Program-made: the position numbers and the translations under genes
DNA from: Coriobacteriales bacterium
Lineage (GTDB): Bacteria > Actinomycetota > Coriobacteriia > Coriobacteriales > UMGS124
DNA length: 39,775 nucleotides
Reading direction: 5' to 3'
NCBI GenBank assembly: GCA_017515595.1
Contig: JAFWFL010000001.1
Span: 1 to 39,775, forward strand
Notes under the pieces: generated by a model
Database searches by the model: none
Told to the model about the DNA's origin: nothing
Seen by the model: the letters and a program-made list of their open reading frames with translations, nothing else
Shown here: positions 26,534 through 39,497 of the stretch, in pieces
Layout: every line of letters starts with the position of its first letter
Position numbering within the stretch: position 1 is the stretch's first letter

Positions 26534-28099
26534 CTAAAACCTAAAGTAGATAAACGGATTAAAGGAGCCCGAAATAACCGATATTGTCGCACACATAAAC
26601 AAAACGATAAGGCATATATCTGCAAGCAGCGCAACAACCTCAAGAACCCTGCGCCGCTTGACATCGCTCACTTTGCTCATATCAAAAATGCAGAGACGCT
26701 CGGTTGAAAGCATTTTTGGTGCAGGAAGGTCATGCTCGATGAAGTCGCCGCCCTTTACCTCCCTGTGTTCAGCCCATGCAACAAGCTTGAAGCGAATCCA
26801 GGGAATCACCGGCATACTCGCGCAGGCGCAAAGTGCAAAAACGGGCAGGTACTGCCAAACACCCAAAGCCGCAAAGCTCGATGTTCCCGTTAGCCCATAT
26901 GCTCCTACAAGCGCCGCAAAGAGCGTCCCAAGCTGCCCTATGTCTATTGATGCAAAAATAAGCCAGCCTACCATGATGGTTAACAGGGCATATATATGCT
27001 GGACAAAAGCGGGTAATCGCTTGAGCAGTTTAAGCAGCAAGGTTTTCTCGGCAATTAAAAGGAGACCGTAGTATGCGCCCCAAAGCACAAAGGTCCAGGC
27101 AGCGCCATGCCAAATACCGGTCAGGAGCCACACAATCGCAATGTTGAGAAGCCAGCGGGGCGTAGAGACGCGGTTGCCTCCCAAAGGGATATATACATAA
27201 TCGCGAAAGAACGATCCCAGCGAGATGTGCCATCTGCGCCAGAATTCGGTTGCCGAGCGCGAAATATACGGGTAATTAAAGTTGCGCAAATAGGTGAAGC
27301 CAAACATGCGGCCTAAGCCAATTGCCATGTCGGAGTATCCGGCAAAATCAAAATAGATTTGGAACGTGTAGGCTAAAAGTCCGCCCCACACACCAATAAG
27401 ACCAAGCTCAGACCCTTGCATTGAGAGAAGCTCGGTTGCGAGAATTGCTACAACGTTTGCCAAAAGTACCTTTTTGGCAAGTCCTACCGAGAAGAGCCGC
27501 AAACCGTCACAAAAACCGGCCATGGTCTCTTTGCGGTTAACAATTTGCTCTTGGATAGTGGAATAACGCACAATGGGACCTGCAACAAGCTGAGGGAAAC
27601 ATGCAATGTACATACCCAGAAAGAGAGGGTTACGTTGAGCTTCAACTTCGCCCCGGTATACGTCTATAACATACGAAACCGCCTGAAGCGTGTAAAATGA
27701 GATGCCCACCGGCAGGGGTAATGCCAGGTCAGGAATGAGCTCTGTCCCGAGCAAAGCATTGAGATTCTGAGCCAAAAAGCCTTCATATTTAAAGAATCCC
27801 AGCACACCCAGGTTAAAAACAAGATCAAGAATCAGGTAAAGGCGCGCCTTCTTGGTTGGTTTATGAACAGCCCGGTCAGAAGTGTGATCTGCCTCACGGC
27901 CCAGTAATGTTGCAAACATATAGTTGGCAAATACCGAGACAATCATAAGCACAACATATACCGGCTCACCCCATGCATAAAACACGAGTGAAGCCAAAAA
28001 AAGGAATATATTTTTAGCGGCTCTGCCGGGCATCAGATAATAAAGAGCTATGCATACCGGCATAAAGAGCAGCAAAAATACTGAACTTGAGAATACCAA
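26534..28099 (-). CDS. MBOAT family O-acyltransferase (AlgI-like)
   Basis: A 521-residue membrane-bound O-acyltransferase that passes acyl (usually acetyl) groups across the membrane for modification of a cell-surface polymer. Family motifs are FWRRWHISLGSFFRDYVYIP and the catalytic histidine in LTGIWHGAAW. About ten or more helices are evident. I place the start at TTG 28099, because the typical family N-terminus MVFSSSVFLLLF begins there and GGGAG is four bases upstream; a longer frame to 28129 has no site. The C-terminal 80 residues include an additional soluble stretch before the last helix. It works with the DHHW protein 12 bases downstream. Confidence 0.9.
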   Translation of the reverse strand: MVFSSSVFLLLFMPVCIALYYLMPGRAAKNIFLFLASLVFYAWGEPVYVVLMIVSVFANYMFATLLGREADHTSDRAVHKPTKKARLYLILDLVFNLGVLGFFKYEGFLAQNLNALLGTELIPDLALPLPVGISFYTLQAVSYVIDVYRGEVEAQRNPLFLGMYIACFPQLVAGPIVRYSTIQEQIVNRKETMAGFCDGLRLFSVGLAKKVLLANVVAILATELLSMQGSELGLIGVWGGLLAYTFQIYFDFAGYSDMAIGLGRMFGFTYLRNFNYPYISRSATEFWRRWHISLGSFFRDYVYIPLGGNRVSTPRWLLNIAIVWLLTGIWHGAAWTFVLWGAYYGLLLIAEKTLLLKLLKRLPAFVQHIYALLTIMVGWLIFASIDIGQLGTLFAALVGAYGLTGTSSFAALGVWQYLPVFALCACASMPVIPWIRFKLVAWAEHREVKGGDFIEHDLPAPKMLSTERLCIFDMSKVSDVKRRRVLEVVALLADICLIVLFMCATISVISGSFNPFIYFRF

Positions 28100-28125
28100 C
28101 GGTCTCCCATCACAATACACATAAA

Positions 28126-28165
28126 ACAAACTGTCTGTGTAATTCTACTACGACAGACAGTTTGT
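28126..28165. repeat. Perfect 13-bp inverted repeat upstream of the MBOAT gene
   Basis: ACAAACTGTCTGT (28126-28138) and its exact complement (28153-28165) flank a 14-base spacer, between the marR stop and the MBOAT start. On the minus strand the second arm runs into TTTGTTTTATG, so it could be a weak terminator or attenuator; it could equally be an operator for the double MarR protein. Confidence 0.6.
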
Positions 28166-33003: not shown

Positions 33004-33083
33004 ACACAACATTGTGTGCGCTTCATATAGACTGGGGAATTCTTCAATCTCTCATATACTTTAGCACTCTACTGTACTAAAGT
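33004..33083. promoter_or_regulatory. Dyads upstream of the histidine operon
   Basis: ACACAA-CA-TTGTGT (33004-33017) is a compact palindrome; ACTTTAG (33058-33064) and CTAAAGT (33077-33083) form a second dyad with a 12-base spacer. Both lie in the 247-bp gap between divergent dnaE and hisZ-hisG, within 130 bp of the operon start. A possible promoter (TTTACA near 33001, TATAGA near 33026) overlaps the first dyad. No T-box or histidine-rich leader peptide is evident. Confidence 0.35.
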
Positions 33084-33133
33084 GTCACAGCACAACTTTA
33101 TCGGGATTTTCTGACCAAGGGAGATTCTTTTTT

Positions 33134-34756
33134 ATGGCACTTTCTACCCCGCGCGGGATGCGCGACATTCTGCCTGATGAGGCGCTCTGGCGCGAGAATA
33201 TTGGCGCTCAGGTTACCAGGTGTTTTGCTGATGCCGGTTATAAGCCGGTCGAGACACCCCTGCTTGAACAGCGCGATCTGATTGATCCCACAGACCTGTC
33301 AGCCGAGCACACCTTCAGGTTGTTTGACCGCGACGGTTCTATGCTTATGCTGCGTCCTGATGTTACGCTGCCCATTGCGCGTATGGTCTCGGCCCGTATG
33401 AGTGATGTTTGTGAACCGGTTCGCCTGCGCTATACCGCTCCGGTTTTTACCGAGAAGGACGCGCTGCGCGGTGAGGCGAGACAGTTTACCCAGCTGGGTA
33501 TAGAGCTTATTGGAGATGCAGGCGTAGAGGCCGATGCCGAGGTGCTTTTGCTTATGGACAAAGCGCTTACGGCAAGCGGCCTTACACATCCTCTCATAGC
33601 TTTAGGTAGTGTTCAGCCCATGAATGCCCTGCTTGAGGCCAGCAATATGCCGCAAGCATGGTGCACGCAGGTGCGCGAAGCCTGTCGTGACAATAATATG
33701 GTTGCTTTGGATGAGCTCGTAGACAGCGCAAAAGATCAGACGGGCGACGCATTGGCGTATGCGCTTAAGGCTCTGGTACGCGTACAGGGCGGTCCAGAAG
33801 CAATTGCTCAAGCACGGGCTTTGATTGAGCCTTTGGGCTGTGTCGAAGATTGCGGGTTTGACGGTCTTGACTATCTTGTGAGCCATGTGACCTTTGAGTC
33901 TGAGCTGCGCATAGATTTTTCGCTCATGGGCTCGTTTGGTTATTACTCGGGCATTGTGTGCGCGGCATATGCACCCGGACTGGGAGCTTGCTTGGGTAGC
34001 GGCGGCCGTTATGACCATGTATTTGAGCGCTACGGAGCTCCGCGCCCCGCAGCCGGGTTCGCGCTTTCGCTCGATACGCTGCAGTTGGCGCTCGACAAAC
34101 AATCGCTCGCACAAAACCGTCCGCTCCGTGTTGCCATCTCAAAAGGTTCGCTCTTTAAAGATGCGGTGAGCCTTCTTGATAAGGCAGGCTATGACGTAAA
34201 AGATCTGGCAGATCCGGGCAGACAACTCACCATAATGGGACCTGACAATATTGAATATATTATTGTGCGGGCAACCGACGCTCCGGCATTTGTGGCTTTT
34301 GGCGGAGCAGACTGCGGAATCTGCGGCAAAGATTCGCTTTTTGAGGCGAACCTTGATGTTATGGATCTCGTGAATCTTGACTTTGGCGCATGCCGTTTTG
34401 TGGTGGCCGAGCCAGACGGTACCCGTGAGCAGGTAGAAGAGAACTACCGCCGCTTGGGCGCTATACGCGTTGCAACCAAGTATCCGCGCATTACGAGGGC
34501 TTATTATGCGAGCCACGGCATCGCGGCAGATATTCTCAAGTTCCATGGTAACATTGAACTTGCCCCTCTGGTAGGAATGGCTGACCGCATTGTAGATATT
34601 ACTGCGACGGGCACAACTCTGAGGGAGAATAACCTCGTAGTGGTAGATGAAGTGATGCAGTGCACAGCGCATCTGTTTGCAAACCCGGCCTCGGCACGCA
34701 CTGACCCGAGAGTCTATGAATTTGCCAAATCCTTAAAAGCCGCCGTTACAAAGTAA
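33134..34756 (+). CDS. hisG: Fused HisZ-HisG ATP phosphoribosyltransferase
   Basis: A single 540-residue chain joins two proteins that are normally separate. Residues 1 to about 322 are HisZ, the histidyl-tRNA-synthetase-like regulatory subunit: STPRGMRDILPDEA, RLRYTAPVFTE in place of motif 2, GSGGRYDHVFERYG (288-301) in place of motif 3. Residues about 329-540 are a short-form HisG: GGADCGICGKD (390-400) and the PRPP-binding VDITATGTTLREN (487-499). Together they catalyse and feedback-regulate the first step of histidine synthesis, ATP plus PRPP to phosphoribosyl-ATP. The frame is continuous with a short linker (about 322-329), so this is a true fusion. The ATG at 33134 follows AAGGGAG at about ten bases. 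It heads the his operon. Confidence 0.93.
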   Translation: MALSTPRGMRDILPDEALWRENIGAQVTRCFADAGYKPVETPLLEQRDLIDPTDLSAEHTFRLFDRDGSMLMLRPDVTLPIARMVSARMSDVCEPVRLRYTAPVFTEKDALRGEARQFTQLGIELIGDAGVEADAEVLLLMDKALTASGLTHPLIALGSVQPMNALLEASNMPQAWCTQVREACRDNNMVALDELVDSAKDQTGDALAYALKALVRVQGGPEAIAQARALIEPLGCVEDCGFDGLDYLVSHVTFESELRIDFSLMGSFGYYSGIVCAAYAPGLGACLGSGGRYDHVFERYGAPRPAAGFALSLDTLQLALDKQSLAQNRPLRVAISKGSLFKDAVSLLDKAGYDVKDLADPGRQLTIMGPDNIEYIIVRATDAPAFVAFGGADCGICGKDSLFEANLDVMDLVNLDFGACRFVVAEPDGTREQVEENYRRLGAIRVATKYPRITRAYYASHGIAADILKFHGNIELAPLVGMADRIVDITATGTTLRENNLVVVDEVMQCTAHLFANPASARTDPRVYEFAKSLKAAVTK

Positions 34757-34870: not shown

Positions 34871-36232
34871 ATGAAGATTATAAATCTTGCACAAGACGAG
34901 CACCTGGTTGAGTCCATGCTTTCGCGCAAGGGATCTCTGCCGGCCGAGGTTCTCGAGGCAGCCGGCAAAATTGTGAACGACTTTCGCGAACGTGGCGACG
35001 CTGCACTTCTGGAGTATGAGAGCCGTTTTGACCACGTTGAGCTCGAGACTTTTGCCGTAGACCCAGAGATGGTTAAAGAAGCGCTCCAGGTAGTGGGCGA
35101 AGAGTTCCTGGAATCCTGCAAAAAAGCCGCAGAACAAATTCGCGATTTTCATCGCCGGGAAGTACAGCAGTCCTGGTTTATGACGCGTGAGGACGGAACC
35201 ATTTTAGGTCAGAAGGTAACCCCTCTTGAGAGTGTGGGCATTTATGTTCCGGGAGGCCGTGCCCAATACCCCTCTACCGTGCTTATGAACGCGATCCCGG
35301 CCAAGGTTGCCGGTGTCAAGCGCGTCATTATGGTTACGCCTCCCCAGGCAGACGGTCTGCTTTCTCCCTATACGCTTTGCGCCGCATATATTGCCGGCGT
35401 TGATGAGATTTATACCGTGGGCGGAGCTCAGGCAATTGCCGCCCTTGCTTACGGTACAGAATCAATTCCCAAGGTTGCCAAAATCACGGGACCCGGTAAC
35501 GCATATGTTGCCGCCGCGAAAAAGCTCGTCTCGGGCGATTGCGGTATTGATATGGTAGCCGGTCCTTCAGAGGTTTGTGTTCTGGCAGATGAAACAGCAG
35601 ATCCGCGTTTGGTTGCGATGGATCTTATGGCTCAGGCCGAGCATGACCCCATGGCTACCTCGTATTTGGTAACCATTGATCCAACGCTTCCGAGTTTAAT
35701 TGAGAAATACATTGAGGAATATCTCCTGAGGAGTCCCCGCCAGGAAATTACCCGTGCATCTTGGGAAAACAACGGAACCATTGTGGTGTGCGAATACATG
35801 GATCAGGCAATAGAAGCAGTTAACGTCATTGCTCCCGAACATCTTGAGATTCAGACGTTTGAGGGCATGGAGCTTTTGGGCCGCATTGTAAACGCAGGCG
35901 CAATATTTGTAGGAACCTGGAGTTCAGAGCCGTTGGGCGACTATGTTGCCGGACCAAACCACACGCTCCCCACGGGCGGTACCGCGCGCTTCTCGAGTCC
36001 GCTTTCGGTTGAGCAGTTTGTTAAGAAGTCCTCGGTCATTTGCTATTCATACGAGGGCCTTGAGGCTGACTGTGATGATGTAGTAACGCTTGCCACGGCA
36101 GAGGGTTTGTGGGCGCACGCACAAAGCGCGCTTTTGCGCCGTACGGTCATGGAGGAATACCAGCAAGAAGCCCAGGCTGAGATCATGAACGATGTATATG
36201 CAGAATACGACGAAGAAGAAGACATTCAGTAA
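34871..36232 (+). CDS. hisD: Histidinol dehydrogenase
   Basis: A 453-residue enzyme for the last two steps, oxidising L-histidinol to L-histidine with two NAD. Catalytic E323-H324 lies in APEHLEIQ; the zinc ligands match Q255, H258, D356 and H415; GPGNAYVAAAK is also typical. The protein ends with an acidic tail (EYDEEEDIQ), a little longer than usual. AAAGGAG is nine bases before the ATG at 34871. It is separated from hisZ-hisG by 114 bases, in which I find no convincing terminator, so the genes are probably co-transcribed, perhaps with an extra internal promoter. Confidence 0.97.
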   Translation: MKIINLAQDEHLVESMLSRKGSLPAEVLEAAGKIVNDFRERGDAALLEYESRFDHVELETFAVDPEMVKEALQVVGEEFLESCKKAAEQIRDFHRREVQQSWFMTREDGTILGQKVTPLESVGIYVPGGRAQYPSTVLMNAIPAKVAGVKRVIMVTPPQADGLLSPYTLCAAYIAGVDEIYTVGGAQAIAALAYGTESIPKVAKITGPGNAYVAAAKKLVSGDCGIDMVAGPSEVCVLADETADPRLVAMDLMAQAEHDPMATSYLVTIDPTLPSLIEKYIEEYLLRSPRQEITRASWENNGTIVVCEYMDQAIEAVNVIAPEHLEIQTFEGMELLGRIVNAGAIFVGTWSSEPLGDYVAGPNHTLPTGGTARFSSPLSVEQFVKKSSVICYSYEGLEADCDDVVTLATAEGLWAHAQSALLRRTVMEEYQQEAQAEIMNDVYAEYDEEEDIQ

Positions 36233-36254
36233 CGGTAAGGATACAAGAACGCCT

Positions 36255-37376
36255 ATGAACACGCCTTTAATTCGCGCTGATCTCGCTAATCTCGAGCCCT
36301 ATGACCCTGATATGCGCGAGGTTCGCATTATGCTCTCGGCAAACGAGAACTCCTACGGTATGCCTCAAAGTGTTTGGCAGGAGGCCTTATCGCGCCTTGC
36401 TGCCGTAGAAATTAACCGGTATCCGCTGGCAACGGCCCCGCGTCTGCGCGGGCTTCTCGCCCAGAAATGGAATGTGGAGCCGGCAAACATTGTTGTGTCA
36501 AATGGCGGAGATGAGCTTTTGTTTAACATTGAGCTCGCTTACGGCGGGCCGGGAAGAGCGCTTGTTAATTGCACACCCACCTTCTCGTCATATGCCCTGT
36601 ATGCTGAGCTTACGCTGACAAAGGTCATTGAGGCGCCGCGTCATTCCAACTTTGATGTAAATGAAGACGCGCTGCTCAAAGCCGCACAGGATCCCGAAGT
36701 GTCGCTTATTGTGGTGACCTCGCCCAATAACCCCACCGGCAACCTTGCCAACCCCGCTTTTGTGGAGAAACTCGCGCAATCTACCGGCGCTCTTGTGTTG
36801 GTTGACGAGGCATACGGCGAGTTTGCGCCAAGCGGTTCGAGCTGTGTCCCGCTTGTTTCCCGGTATGACAATGTTTGTGTATTGCGCACCCTGAGCAAAG
36901 CATATGCCCTGGCAGGAGCCCGGCTTGGCTACATAATTGCGCCTAAGCCCGTGGCAGATGTTCTTTTGGCAGTGCGCCAGCCCTACTCGGTATCGAGCTT
37001 AGACCAGACTGTGGCCGAGGTTGTGCTTGAACATGCATCTGAGCTTGATAAAATAACAACCCGGCTGGTCGAGAACCGCGCGGCTTTGCTGGAGGACCTC
37101 CTTCAGCTGGCACAGGATACCCGGGCTGCGTATGGCGCAACAGCTTTGGAGCCGTTCCCCAGCGAAGCAAACTTTATTATGCTGCGTATTCAGGAAAACG
37201 TTGCCGGAATGACCGCAACTGATGTTCATGAGATTCTCGCGAACAAGTACTCGATTTTGGTTCGCAATTTTTCGCGCACGCTAGGTTTGGGAGGATGTCT
37301 GCGCTTTACGGTTGGCACGCAGGAACAAAACGGACAGCTCATATGTGCTCTCCGTGAGATTTTTGGCTGTAAGTAA
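36255..37376 (+). CDS. hisC: Histidinol-phosphate aminotransferase
   Basis: A 373-residue fold-type I PLP enzyme that makes histidinol phosphate from imidazole-acetol phosphate and glutamate. The PLP lysine is K215 in RTLSKAYALAG, with SPNNPTGN (156-163) and DEAYGEF (184-190) also lining the cofactor. It starts at the ATG at 36255, 22 bases after hisD; a longer frame overlapping the end of hisD is less likely although the ribosome binding site here is weak (TAAGGAT, 13 bases away). Length and N-terminal RADLANLEPYDP are normal for the family. Confidence 0.95.
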   Translation: MNTPLIRADLANLEPYDPDMREVRIMLSANENSYGMPQSVWQEALSRLAAVEINRYPLATAPRLRGLLAQKWNVEPANIVVSNGGDELLFNIELAYGGPGRALVNCTPTFSSYALYAELTLTKVIEAPRHSNFDVNEDALLKAAQDPEVSLIVVTSPNNPTGNLANPAFVEKLAQSTGALVLVDEAYGEFAPSGSSCVPLVSRYDNVCVLRTLSKAYALAGARLGYIIAPKPVADVLLAVRQPYSVSSLDQTVAEVVLEHASELDKITTRLVENRAALLEDLLQLAQDTRAAYGATALEPFPSEANFIMLRIQENVAGMTATDVHEILANKYSILVRNFSRTLGLGGCLRFTVGTQEQNGQLICALREIFGCK

Positions 37377-37388
37377 GGAGTGTGCACT

Positions 37389-38006
37389 ATGTCTGAGCAA
37401 GAGAGCTATATGCCGCCCATTGGACGCGCTACACGTATTGGCAGACAAACGCGTGAGACCGACATCCGTGTGTTTCTCGACCTTGACGGTGAGGGCGATG
37501 CTACTATAGATACAGGTGTTCCGTTTCTTGACCACATGCTCGACGCTTTTGCGCGGCACGGCCTGTTTGACCTTGAGGTTATAGCGCACGGCGATGTCGA
37601 GGTAGATGACCATCATACGGTTGAGGATGTTGGCATTGTGCTGGGTAATGCAGTGCGCGAAGCTTTGGGAGAAGCCCGCGGTATTACGCGCTATGGCAAT
37701 GCGTTTGTTCCCATGGACGAGTCGCTTGTGCTTGCGGTAATAGATATCTCGGGCCGGGGCGCTGCGTTTTATGATCTTAACATCCCAACCGAGCGCGTTG
37801 GTACGTTTGACACCCAGCTGGTAAGAGAGTTTATGATTGCTTTTGCCGCAAACGCAGGCATTACGCTCCATGTGCGCCAGATTGTGGGTTCAAACTCCCA
37901 CCATATTATTGAAGCCGCGTTTAAGGCGGTTGCGCGTGCGCTCATGCAGGCGACGCGTCTTGACCCCCGGGTATCAGGTGTTCCCTCTACCAAGGGGAGC
38001 CTGTAA
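37389..38006 (+). CDS. hisB: Imidazoleglycerol-phosphate dehydratase
   Basis: A 205-residue monofunctional dehydratase, converting imidazole-glycerol phosphate to imidazole-acetol phosphate with two manganese ions. Metal-binding motifs are DHMLDAFARHG (48-58), DDHHTVED (73-80) and SNSHHIIEA near the C-terminus. AAGGAG overlapping the hisC stop is eight bases before the ATG at 37389. No phosphatase domain is fused, so histidinol phosphatase must be encoded elsewhere. Confidence 0.96.
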   Translation: MSEQESYMPPIGRATRIGRQTRETDIRVFLDLDGEGDATIDTGVPFLDHMLDAFARHGLFDLEVIAHGDVEVDDHHTVEDVGIVLGNAVREALGEARGITRYGNAFVPMDESLVLAVIDISGRGAAFYDLNIPTERVGTFDTQLVREFMIAFAANAGITLHVRQIVGSNSHHIIEAAFKAVARALMQATRLDPRVSGVPSTKGSL

Positions 38007-38720
38007 ATGAGCGGCTATATTGCAGTAGTAGATTATCATAAAGGGAATTTGCTCTCGGTTGAGCAGGCGGTAGACGCAGCCGGAGGCACGGCGTGTGTGA
38101 CCGATGCCCTTGATAAGATAACCCAAGCTCAGGGCGTTATTGTGCCGGGCGTTGGCGCGTTTGCCGACGCCATGGAATATATGGAGGCATCAGGCCAGGC
38201 GGAAGCCATTAAAGCCTGCGCGCAGGCAGGCGTTCCCATTTTGGGCATCTGCCTGGGAATGCAGCTTTTGTTTGAGCGCGGCAACGAGCATGCCGCATCG
38301 TTTGGTTCGCAGGTTGGCGGCGGGGCAACGTGCGCGCAGACCTCTGAAGGCGGGTCTTCTCAGGCGCCGCAGTGGGTAGCCGGACTCGGGCTCCTTGGCG
38401 GCGAAGTTGTGCGCATGGAAGGCAGCGGCGTTAAGGTGCCTCATATGGGCTGGAACTCAGCCATGCTTACCAAACAGGCGGATATTTGCCCCTTATGGCG
38501 CAGCATAGAAGAAGGTACGTACTTTTATTTCACGCATTCTTATGTGTGCGAGCCTCTTGACCCGGGCATCATTGTTGCACGTACCGAGCATGCGCTGCCC
38601 TTTGTGAGCGCCATTTGGGACGGCGGCAGAATCTTTGGCTGCCAGTTCCATCCCGAGAAATCAAGCGGCGCCGGAGCACGCATTATCAGCAACTTTGTGC
38701 GTCTCTGTGAGGAGGGATAA
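38007..38720 (+). CDS. hisH: Imidazole glycerol phosphate synthase, glutaminase subunit
   Basis: A 237-residue class I glutamine amidotransferase that supplies ammonia to HisF. The nucleophile is C82 in GICLGMQLLFE; the histidine and glutamate are in QFHPEKSS near the C-terminus. Between about residues 92 and 122 there is a Gly/Ser/Gln-rich insertion not present in most HisH proteins, before the standard GLGLLGG. The core is otherwise normal. The ATG directly follows the hisB stop codon (TAAATG), with AAGGGGAG seven bases upstream. Confidence 0.95.
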   Translation: MSGYIAVVDYHKGNLLSVEQAVDAAGGTACVTDALDKITQAQGVIVPGVGAFADAMEYMEASGQAEAIKACAQAGVPILGICLGMQLLFERGNEHAASFGSQVGGGATCAQTSEGGSSQAPQWVAGLGLLGGEVVRMEGSGVKVPHMGWNSAMLTKQADICPLWRSIEEGTYFYFTHSYVCEPLDPGIIVARTEHALPFVSAIWDGGRIFGCQFHPEKSSGAGARIISNFVRLCEEG

Positions 38721-38723
38721 CGC

Positions 38724-39497
38724 ATGATTGTGTTCCCGGCGATAGACCTCATAGCAGGTAATGTGGTGCGGCTCAAGCGCGGCAAGCGCGAAGACATGAA
38801 CATTTATTCAAATGACCCGGTAAGCATTGCCTACGGGTTCAAAGAACAAGGCGCTGTCTGGATTCACGTGGTTGACCTCTCGGCAACCTTTGAAGAAGAC
38901 GAGGCAGCGCAGGCTGCAAACAAGGCAGCCATTGGTGCGCTCTGCCAGATTGAAGGCATCCAAATTGATGTGGGCGGCGGCGTGCGTTCTCTGTCTCGCA
39001 TTGAGGAGCTCGCAAACCTTGGTGCATCGCGCATAGCCCTAGGCACCGTGCTGGTACGTGAACCTGAGTTTGCCTCAGAAGCGGCCCGCGAGTTCGGAGA
39101 TCTTTTGGTTGCCGACATTGCAGCTCAGGATGGAATAGTTGCCATTAACGGCTGGCGCGAAGACACCCGCATAAAGGCTGATGATCTCATAGCATCTCTG
39201 GCCGAGAAGGGCTTTAAGCACCTTGTATTTACCGACATTGCCCGCGACGGCATGCAAACCGGTATCAATACCTGTGCGTATTCCCACATAGCCCAGGTGG
39301 CCGGCTTCCCGGTGGTTGCCTCGGGCGGTATAGCAAACCTTGATGACCTCAAAGCTCTGGCAGCCCTGCCGGCAACGGTTATAGAAGGCGCCATCACAGG
39401 CCGGGCTCTTTATGAGGGCAATTTTACACTCAAAGAGGCTCTTGACGTTGTACAAGCCACCAAAGAAGGGAGCGGTCCATGCTCGCAAAACGTGTAA
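38724..39497 (+). CDS. hisA: ProFAR isomerase (HisA)
   Basis: A 257-residue (beta-alpha)8 isomerase that converts ProFAR to PRFAR. The catalytic aspartates are D8 in FPAIDL and D131 in LLVADIAA; the phosphate-binding loops VDVGGGVRS-like (IDVGGGVRS, 81-89) and VASGGI are present, as is FTDIARDG (169-176). It begins three bases after hisH behind a GAGGAGG site and overlaps hisF by 19 bases. It could in principle be the bifunctional PriA of other actinobacteria, which also acts in tryptophan synthesis; this cannot be told from the sequence alone. Confidence 0.93.

Follow-up and report, generated by a model that had tools for sequence, protein, structure and literature searches.

A gene located at positions 33134-34756 of the window analysed here (a stretch of 39,775 nucleotides from the contig JAFWFL010000001.1 of a Coriobacteriales bacterium, assembly GCA_017515595.1) encodes a fused short-form ATP phosphoribosyltransferase in which the regulatory HisZ and the catalytic HisG parts form one chain, an already known kind of fusion that is usual in its order. 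ATP phosphoribosyltransferase catalyses the first, feedback-controlled step of histidine synthesis, and the product of the fused gene is likely to be a single-chain short-form enzyme, equivalent with four chains to the 4+4 complex of separate subunits, inhibited by histidine, repressed through HisR and originated by the fusion of adjacent genes.

Identification of the fused hisZ-hisG gene

The existence of a single polypeptide of 540 residues at these coordinates had been proposed in a previous sequence-only reading, and both the position and the length were exact. Translation of the listed frame revealed one uninterrupted sequence from ATG to TAA with zero internal stops, in which the following parts were recognized:

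33134..34756, forward strand: fused hisZ-hisG gene, 540 amino acids, ATP phosphoribosyltransferase, regulatory plus catalytic
33134..34093, forward strand: HisZ domain, residues 1-320 (TIGR00443 at 10-320, PF13393 at 8-316, 3od1_A)
34094..34123, forward strand: junction or linker, residues 321-330, about 10 residues between HisZ and HisG
34124..34756, forward strand: HisG short-form catalytic domain, residues 331-540, plus the stop codon (TIGR00070, PF01634, 2vd2_A, 8oy0_E and others)

The proposed identity of both halves was borne out by NCBIfam, Pfam and solved-structure alignments. HisZ (TIGR00443) was the best NCBIfam family for the N-terminal half (E 1.5e-75), although the score of 254.2 bits is just below the cut-off of 271.65, and the HisG half matched TIGR00070 at residues 331-515 (E 6.9e-54) with 182.5 bits, exceeding the cut-off of 75.75. 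The Pfam families PF13393 (230.8 bits) and PF01634 (residues 379-534) both exceeded their cut-offs. In structure-sequence alignments, the solved HisZ 3od1_A covered residues 4-328 and the solved HisG 2vd2_A residues 328-534. The HisZ domain is a histidyl-tRNA-synthetase-like regulatory part without C-terminal tail. The HisG half is assigned to the short form, considering that it has about 210 residues, that the chain stops at residue 540 with the long-form C-terminal regulatory domain absent after the catalytic part, and that PF13393 and PF01634 were the only Pfam families found.

A stop codon or a frameshift near codon 325 had been named as a finding that would refute the fusion, and none is present there; the join is also in one frame in a related locus from an uncultured Coriobacteriales bacterium (L033), with 68% identity across both halves, and in 52 further fetched loci. 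The fusion is the sole HisZ/HisG copy found in the genome (3.30 Mb, 97.69% completeness), and the other two matches to HisZ/HisG correspond to two pieces of one HisS-like frame in contig C18.

The fused gene is the first of a run that continues with the following histidine genes:

34871..36232, forward strand: hisD (TIGR00069), next gene downstream of the fusion
36192..37376, forward strand: hisC (TIGR01141), with the listed start inside hisD, sharing its last 41 nt (36192-36232)
37380..38006, forward strand: hisB (dehydratase), NCBIfam match
38007..38720, forward strand: hisH (TIGR01855)
38724..39497, forward strand: hisA (TIGR00007, slightly below its cut-off)

The true start of hisC is likely a later ATG than the listed one. 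Elsewhere in the window, a frame at 26534-28129 on the reverse strand showed a DltB-like match under the family cut-off.

Distribution of the fusion in the Coriobacteriia and the phylum

A survey of HisZ-HisG architectures in the Coriobacteriia, suggested by the sequence-only reading, has been carried out with 197 genomes drawn evenly from a larger group, 114 of them from the same order, including the window genome. The fusion was found in one frame in 100 of the 114 order genomes: a single alignment covered both halves with no stop in 93 of them, the halves aligned separately yet share one frame in 6 others (L062-L067), and the alignment pieces lie within one 634-residue frame in the last one (G080). 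Neither hisZ nor hisG was found in the other 14 order genomes, which gave weak matches only (best E values from 6.6e-15 to 1.6e-5), comparable to the match of the HisS-like gene of the window genome itself (E 6.4e-9). Histidine auxotrophs are reported in the Coriobacteriales group in PMC9413887.

Among the 83 genomes from the rest of the class, at least 9 had the fusion and belong to three families, f5 (2/2), f7 (5/9) and f8 (2/3); the remaining four f7 genomes and one f8 genome, with 59-87% completeness, gave no usable HisZ/HisG pair. The fused f8 proteins (L054, L055) have a HisZ part reduced to about 250 residues through the loss of an internal region. Separate, adjacent hisZ and hisG genes on the same strand were present in all the loci fetched from other families of the class (20/20). 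The individual classification as fused or separate covered these 29 of the 83 genomes, and the other 54 include the five f7 and f8 genomes with no usable pair. The phylum survey included 296 genomes, 270 of them outside the class, and among the matches listed for these 270 genomes none covers both halves; the 16 out-of-class loci fetched, picked mostly by score, were all separate. A candidate fusion in G454, an actinobacterial genome from outside the class, was considered and rejected, since HisZ stops there at a TAG followed directly by an in-frame ATG and then HisG. A 687-residue open frame is nevertheless listed for both halves of this locus (L074), despite the TAG.

The fusion is, in conclusion, the usual form in the Coriobacteriales, the order being assigned from its named members (L033 and Collinsella aerofaciens), and is also found in three further families of the class. 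The idea that organisms with short HisG normally have a separate HisZ holds generally, but not for the Coriobacteriales, where fusion is the rule. The sequence-only reading had also allowed that the fusion could be already well described in the class, and this is true in part: it is usual in the genomes of the order, and hisZ-hisG is named among fused his genes in one sentence of a 2022 paper (PMC9413887), which refers to Fani 2007 and Fani 1995. Searches of an open-licence library revealed neither enzymological work on the fusion nor a survey of it. The term hisZ is not present in the text of Fani 2007 (PMC1963479).

Junction between HisZ and HisG

For the comparison of individual loci, 93 were read and 3 were dropped (two HisS-like pieces and one empty placeholder), resulting in 90 rows, 54 fused, counting the window and L033, and 36 separate. 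The distance from the equivalent of G308 to the equivalent of L331 was 21-109 residues in the 54 fused loci, with a median of 28 and a value of 23 in the window. In the separate rows, the distance from the equivalent of G308 to the end of HisZ was 63-125 residues in 33/36 and 23-26 residues in 3/36. All 20 separate loci of the class have a HisZ tail of 46-108 residues past residue 324, and their HisG domain (equivalent of residue 329) starts 8-32 nt past the HisZ stop. Compared with these fetched unfused relatives from the class, the fused proteins lack the HisZ tail and carry a variable linker and HisG in its position; the stretches between both domains differ in length and appear by eye linker-like or unstructured.

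No Pfam family of its own was detected for the tail in two unfused HisZ proteins. When one unfused HisZ was searched with phmmer, the alignments of certain HisRS and HisZ chains extended a short distance into the tail, which may derive from the tail domain of HisRS.

Origin of the fusion

In the HisZ tree of the 90 rows, a single branch (SH-aLRT 99) separated the 54 fused rows from the rest, and the fused rows of the class were also on one side of a branch in the careful HisZ tree of 43 rows (96/98) and together in the concatenation of HisZ and HisG (96). The HisG tree requires two changes, with the fused f5, f7 and f8 rows located beside unfused rows. With 43 HisG rows, none of the 200 bootstrap trees united all fused rows and the AU test gave a weak rejection (p 0.030), and with 90 rows holding the fused rows together was not rejected (AU p 0.497). 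As the HisZ trees unite the fused rows and the HisG trees are mixed, one or two fusion events within the Coriobacteriia are both possible.

A fused protein of 556 residues, annotated as hisZ only, is also encoded in Monoglobus pectinilyticus, from the Bacillota (WP_320690599.1, L126 3962-5632). It has the same domain order as the window protein and likewise lacks the HisZ tail, but hisA and hisIE are located downstream instead of hisD. The tail has 56-72 amino acids in five relatives of Monoglobus with separate genes (four from the Bacillota and one from the Fusobacteriota). The HisG half of Monoglobus clusters with rows from the Bacillota and Fusobacteriota (99/97), and its HisZ half is, by path, closest to unfused actinobacterial rows. 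A single origin of the fusions of Coriobacteriia and Monoglobus was rejected with AU p values of 0.005 for HisZ and 7.7e-6 for HisG, to be taken with caution given the long branches or unusual composition of several rows. The fusion of M. pectinilyticus apparently represents an independent event.

Conservation of regulatory and catalytic residues

The putative histidine-pocket columns D/E76, Q120, E124, Y270 and Y271, which we take to be HisRS Glu83, Gln127, Glu131, Tyr264 and Tyr265, were kept in 54/54 fused rows. In the HisRS numbering, T106 and G266 of the window presumably occupy the places of the catalytic Arg113 and Arg259, whose loss, beside a separate HisS, would distinguish HisZ from a working histidyl-tRNA synthetase. 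At the Arg113 place the window has T, but 50/54 fused rows have Arg. Arg was found at the Arg259 place in 31/36 separate HisZ and in 2/54 fused rows, and Ser occupies column 263 in 52/54 fused rows versus 3/36 separate ones, differences that do not amount to a statistical link with the fusion because the fused rows share one or two origins. According to the alignments of solved HisZ proteins, 8oy0_A has Arg and 3od1_A another residue at the Arg259 place, so that this residue varies among HisZ proteins.

In the HisG half, S339 and R363 are assumed to be at the places of the catalytic Arg32 and Arg56 of Psychrobacter arcticus, as deduced from the 8oy0_E alignment and the 5m8h_E coordinates together with the P. 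arcticus residue numbering. Arg is present at the R363 position in 90/90 rows, and at the S339 position in 0/90 actinobacterial short HisG rows, separate ones included. In the P. arcticus enzyme, Arg32 aids leaving-group departure (PMC9734150). The loss of the Arg32 equivalent was considered as a hallmark of the fusion and discarded, since none of the 90 rows, fused or separate, has this Arg.

HisR-type operator

A putative operator precedes the fused gene:

33065..33084, no strand assigned: HisR-type operator CACTCTACTGTACTAAAGTG, 49 nt before the ATG, with 1 mismatch to the consensus cacTTTAnnnnnnTAAAgtg printed in PMC9413887

It is the only site of the genome with one mismatch or less, and 10 other sites have two; a control scan with the reversed HisR pattern yielded 6 sites versus 11 with the true pattern. 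The number expected by chance at up to 3 mismatches is a mean of 1.50 in the window, and at up to 1 mismatch, by base composition, 5e-5 per 400 nt and 0.44 per genome, so the place and the conservation of the operator are what count. Sites with up to 3 mismatches within 400 nt upstream were present in 44/54 fused loci, 20/20 separate loci of the class and 6/16 separate loci out of the class, with 0-2 of 50 shuffles being equally good in each of these. As the operator is equally common or commoner before the unfused genes of the class, HisR-type control is independent of the fusion.

The genome also contains a TrpR-family gene (C101:14607-14852, PF01371 exceeding its cut-off) that may be hisR. 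A HisR regulon calls for a 20-bp palindrome upstream, predicted here from sequence, together with a gene of the TrpR family, and both were found. A search for RNA control (T-box or other) gave zero Rfam matches in the window at gathering thresholds.

Proposed assembly and regulation of the fused enzyme

The separate subunits form a hetero-octamer with four HisZ flanked by two HisG dimers, and in this 4+4 complex HisZ activates HisG and mediates inhibition by histidine, as described in PMC10795190 and PMC9734150. According to the proposed model, an ancestral pair of adjacent hisZ and hisG genes would have fused through loss of the HisZ tail together with its stop codon and the short spacer that preceded HisG, and four fused chains would assemble through the HisZ core and the HisG dimer contacts to give the equivalent of the 4+4 complex. 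The unliganded HisZ part would activate the HisG part, histidine would still bind to the HisZ pocket and inhibit, and HisR with histidine would repress transcription. The fused enzyme is probably still inhibited by histidine, and its response could differ, since the Arg259 place and column 263 differ in the fused rows. The sequence-only reading had argued that the fusion fixes the stoichiometry; one chain does hold one of each part, but this adds little because separate HisZ and HisG already assemble 4:4. It had further suggested a change in allosteric control by histidine, which may or may not have taken place, given the kept pocket columns on one side and the lost tail and Arg259 equivalent on the other. 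An AlphaFold2 model obtained from two sequences had a mean pLDDT of 33.4 and was unusable.

A more far-reaching interpretation is that HisG, by taking the place of the HisZ tail, has produced a differently assembled and regulated enzyme that evolved at least twice, once or twice in the Coriobacteriia and again in Monoglobus, and to this we give limited credence. It is somewhat less probable that the HisZ half has become mainly structural, with a weakened histidine feedback and control shifted to transcription through HisR. The loss of the Arg259 equivalent and of the tail in the fused rows, the HisZ part of f8 reduced in size and the operator upstream of most fused genes would agree with such a shift, but the pocket columns are intact in every fused row, the Arg259 place varies among solved HisZ, and the operator, found in all 20 unfused loci fetched from the class, did not arise as a replacement for lost feedback.

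The persistence of separate subunits through free HisG, also made from the fused chain by an internal start or by proteolysis, is still harder to sustain. In-frame ATG, GTG or TTG codons occur from 40 codons before to 9 after the HisG start in 52/54 fused loci, 15/54 have a start candidate with a loose purine-rich motif upstream, and the linkers vary in length and appear unstructured by eye; however, the sole candidate of the window in this region, a TTG located 11 codons upstream of the HisG start, lacks the purine-rich motif, L033 has no candidate there, and the positions of the motif-bearing candidates differ from locus to locus. The joining of two genes by an assembly or sequencing artefact can practically be dismissed, as nothing was found in its favour and the same single frame appears in 53 other fetched loci, which include one-contig genomes (e.g. 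G134), and in Collinsella aerofaciens as annotated in RefSeq.

Comparison with known systems

The single-chain, histidine-inhibited enzyme proposed here combines the same two families in the same functional pairing as the short-form hetero-octamer of HisZ and HisGS (PDB 5m8h, 8oy0, 1z7m), with which it shares the Arg56 equivalent and the HisZ pocket columns. It differs from this complex in having one chain instead of two, in lacking the C-terminal tail of HisZ, also missing in 3/36 separate HisZ, and in a residue other than Arg at the Arg259 place. Long-form HisG (HisGL) resembles the fusion in that a single chain is both catalytic and regulated by histidine (PMC10795190), but its regulatory part is the C-terminal HisG domain, described in PMC3896937 as non-homologous to HisZ. 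The fusion of C. aerofaciens (WP_320677953.1, NZ_OY725717.1) is of the same type, with one alignment that covers 99% of the window protein across both halves and with the gene order fused gene-hisD-hisC-hisB, as in the window; it has 571 residues and 46.8% identity to the window protein, and its match coordinates coincide with those of the surveyed order genome G108.

A natural one-chain HisZ-HisG is a handy system for studying the activation and inhibition of HisG by a tRNA-synthetase relative, because the partners cannot dissociate. Automatic annotation can name one half only of these proteins, hisG in Collinsella and hisZ in Monoglobus, so that a pathway survey could record the other half as absent.
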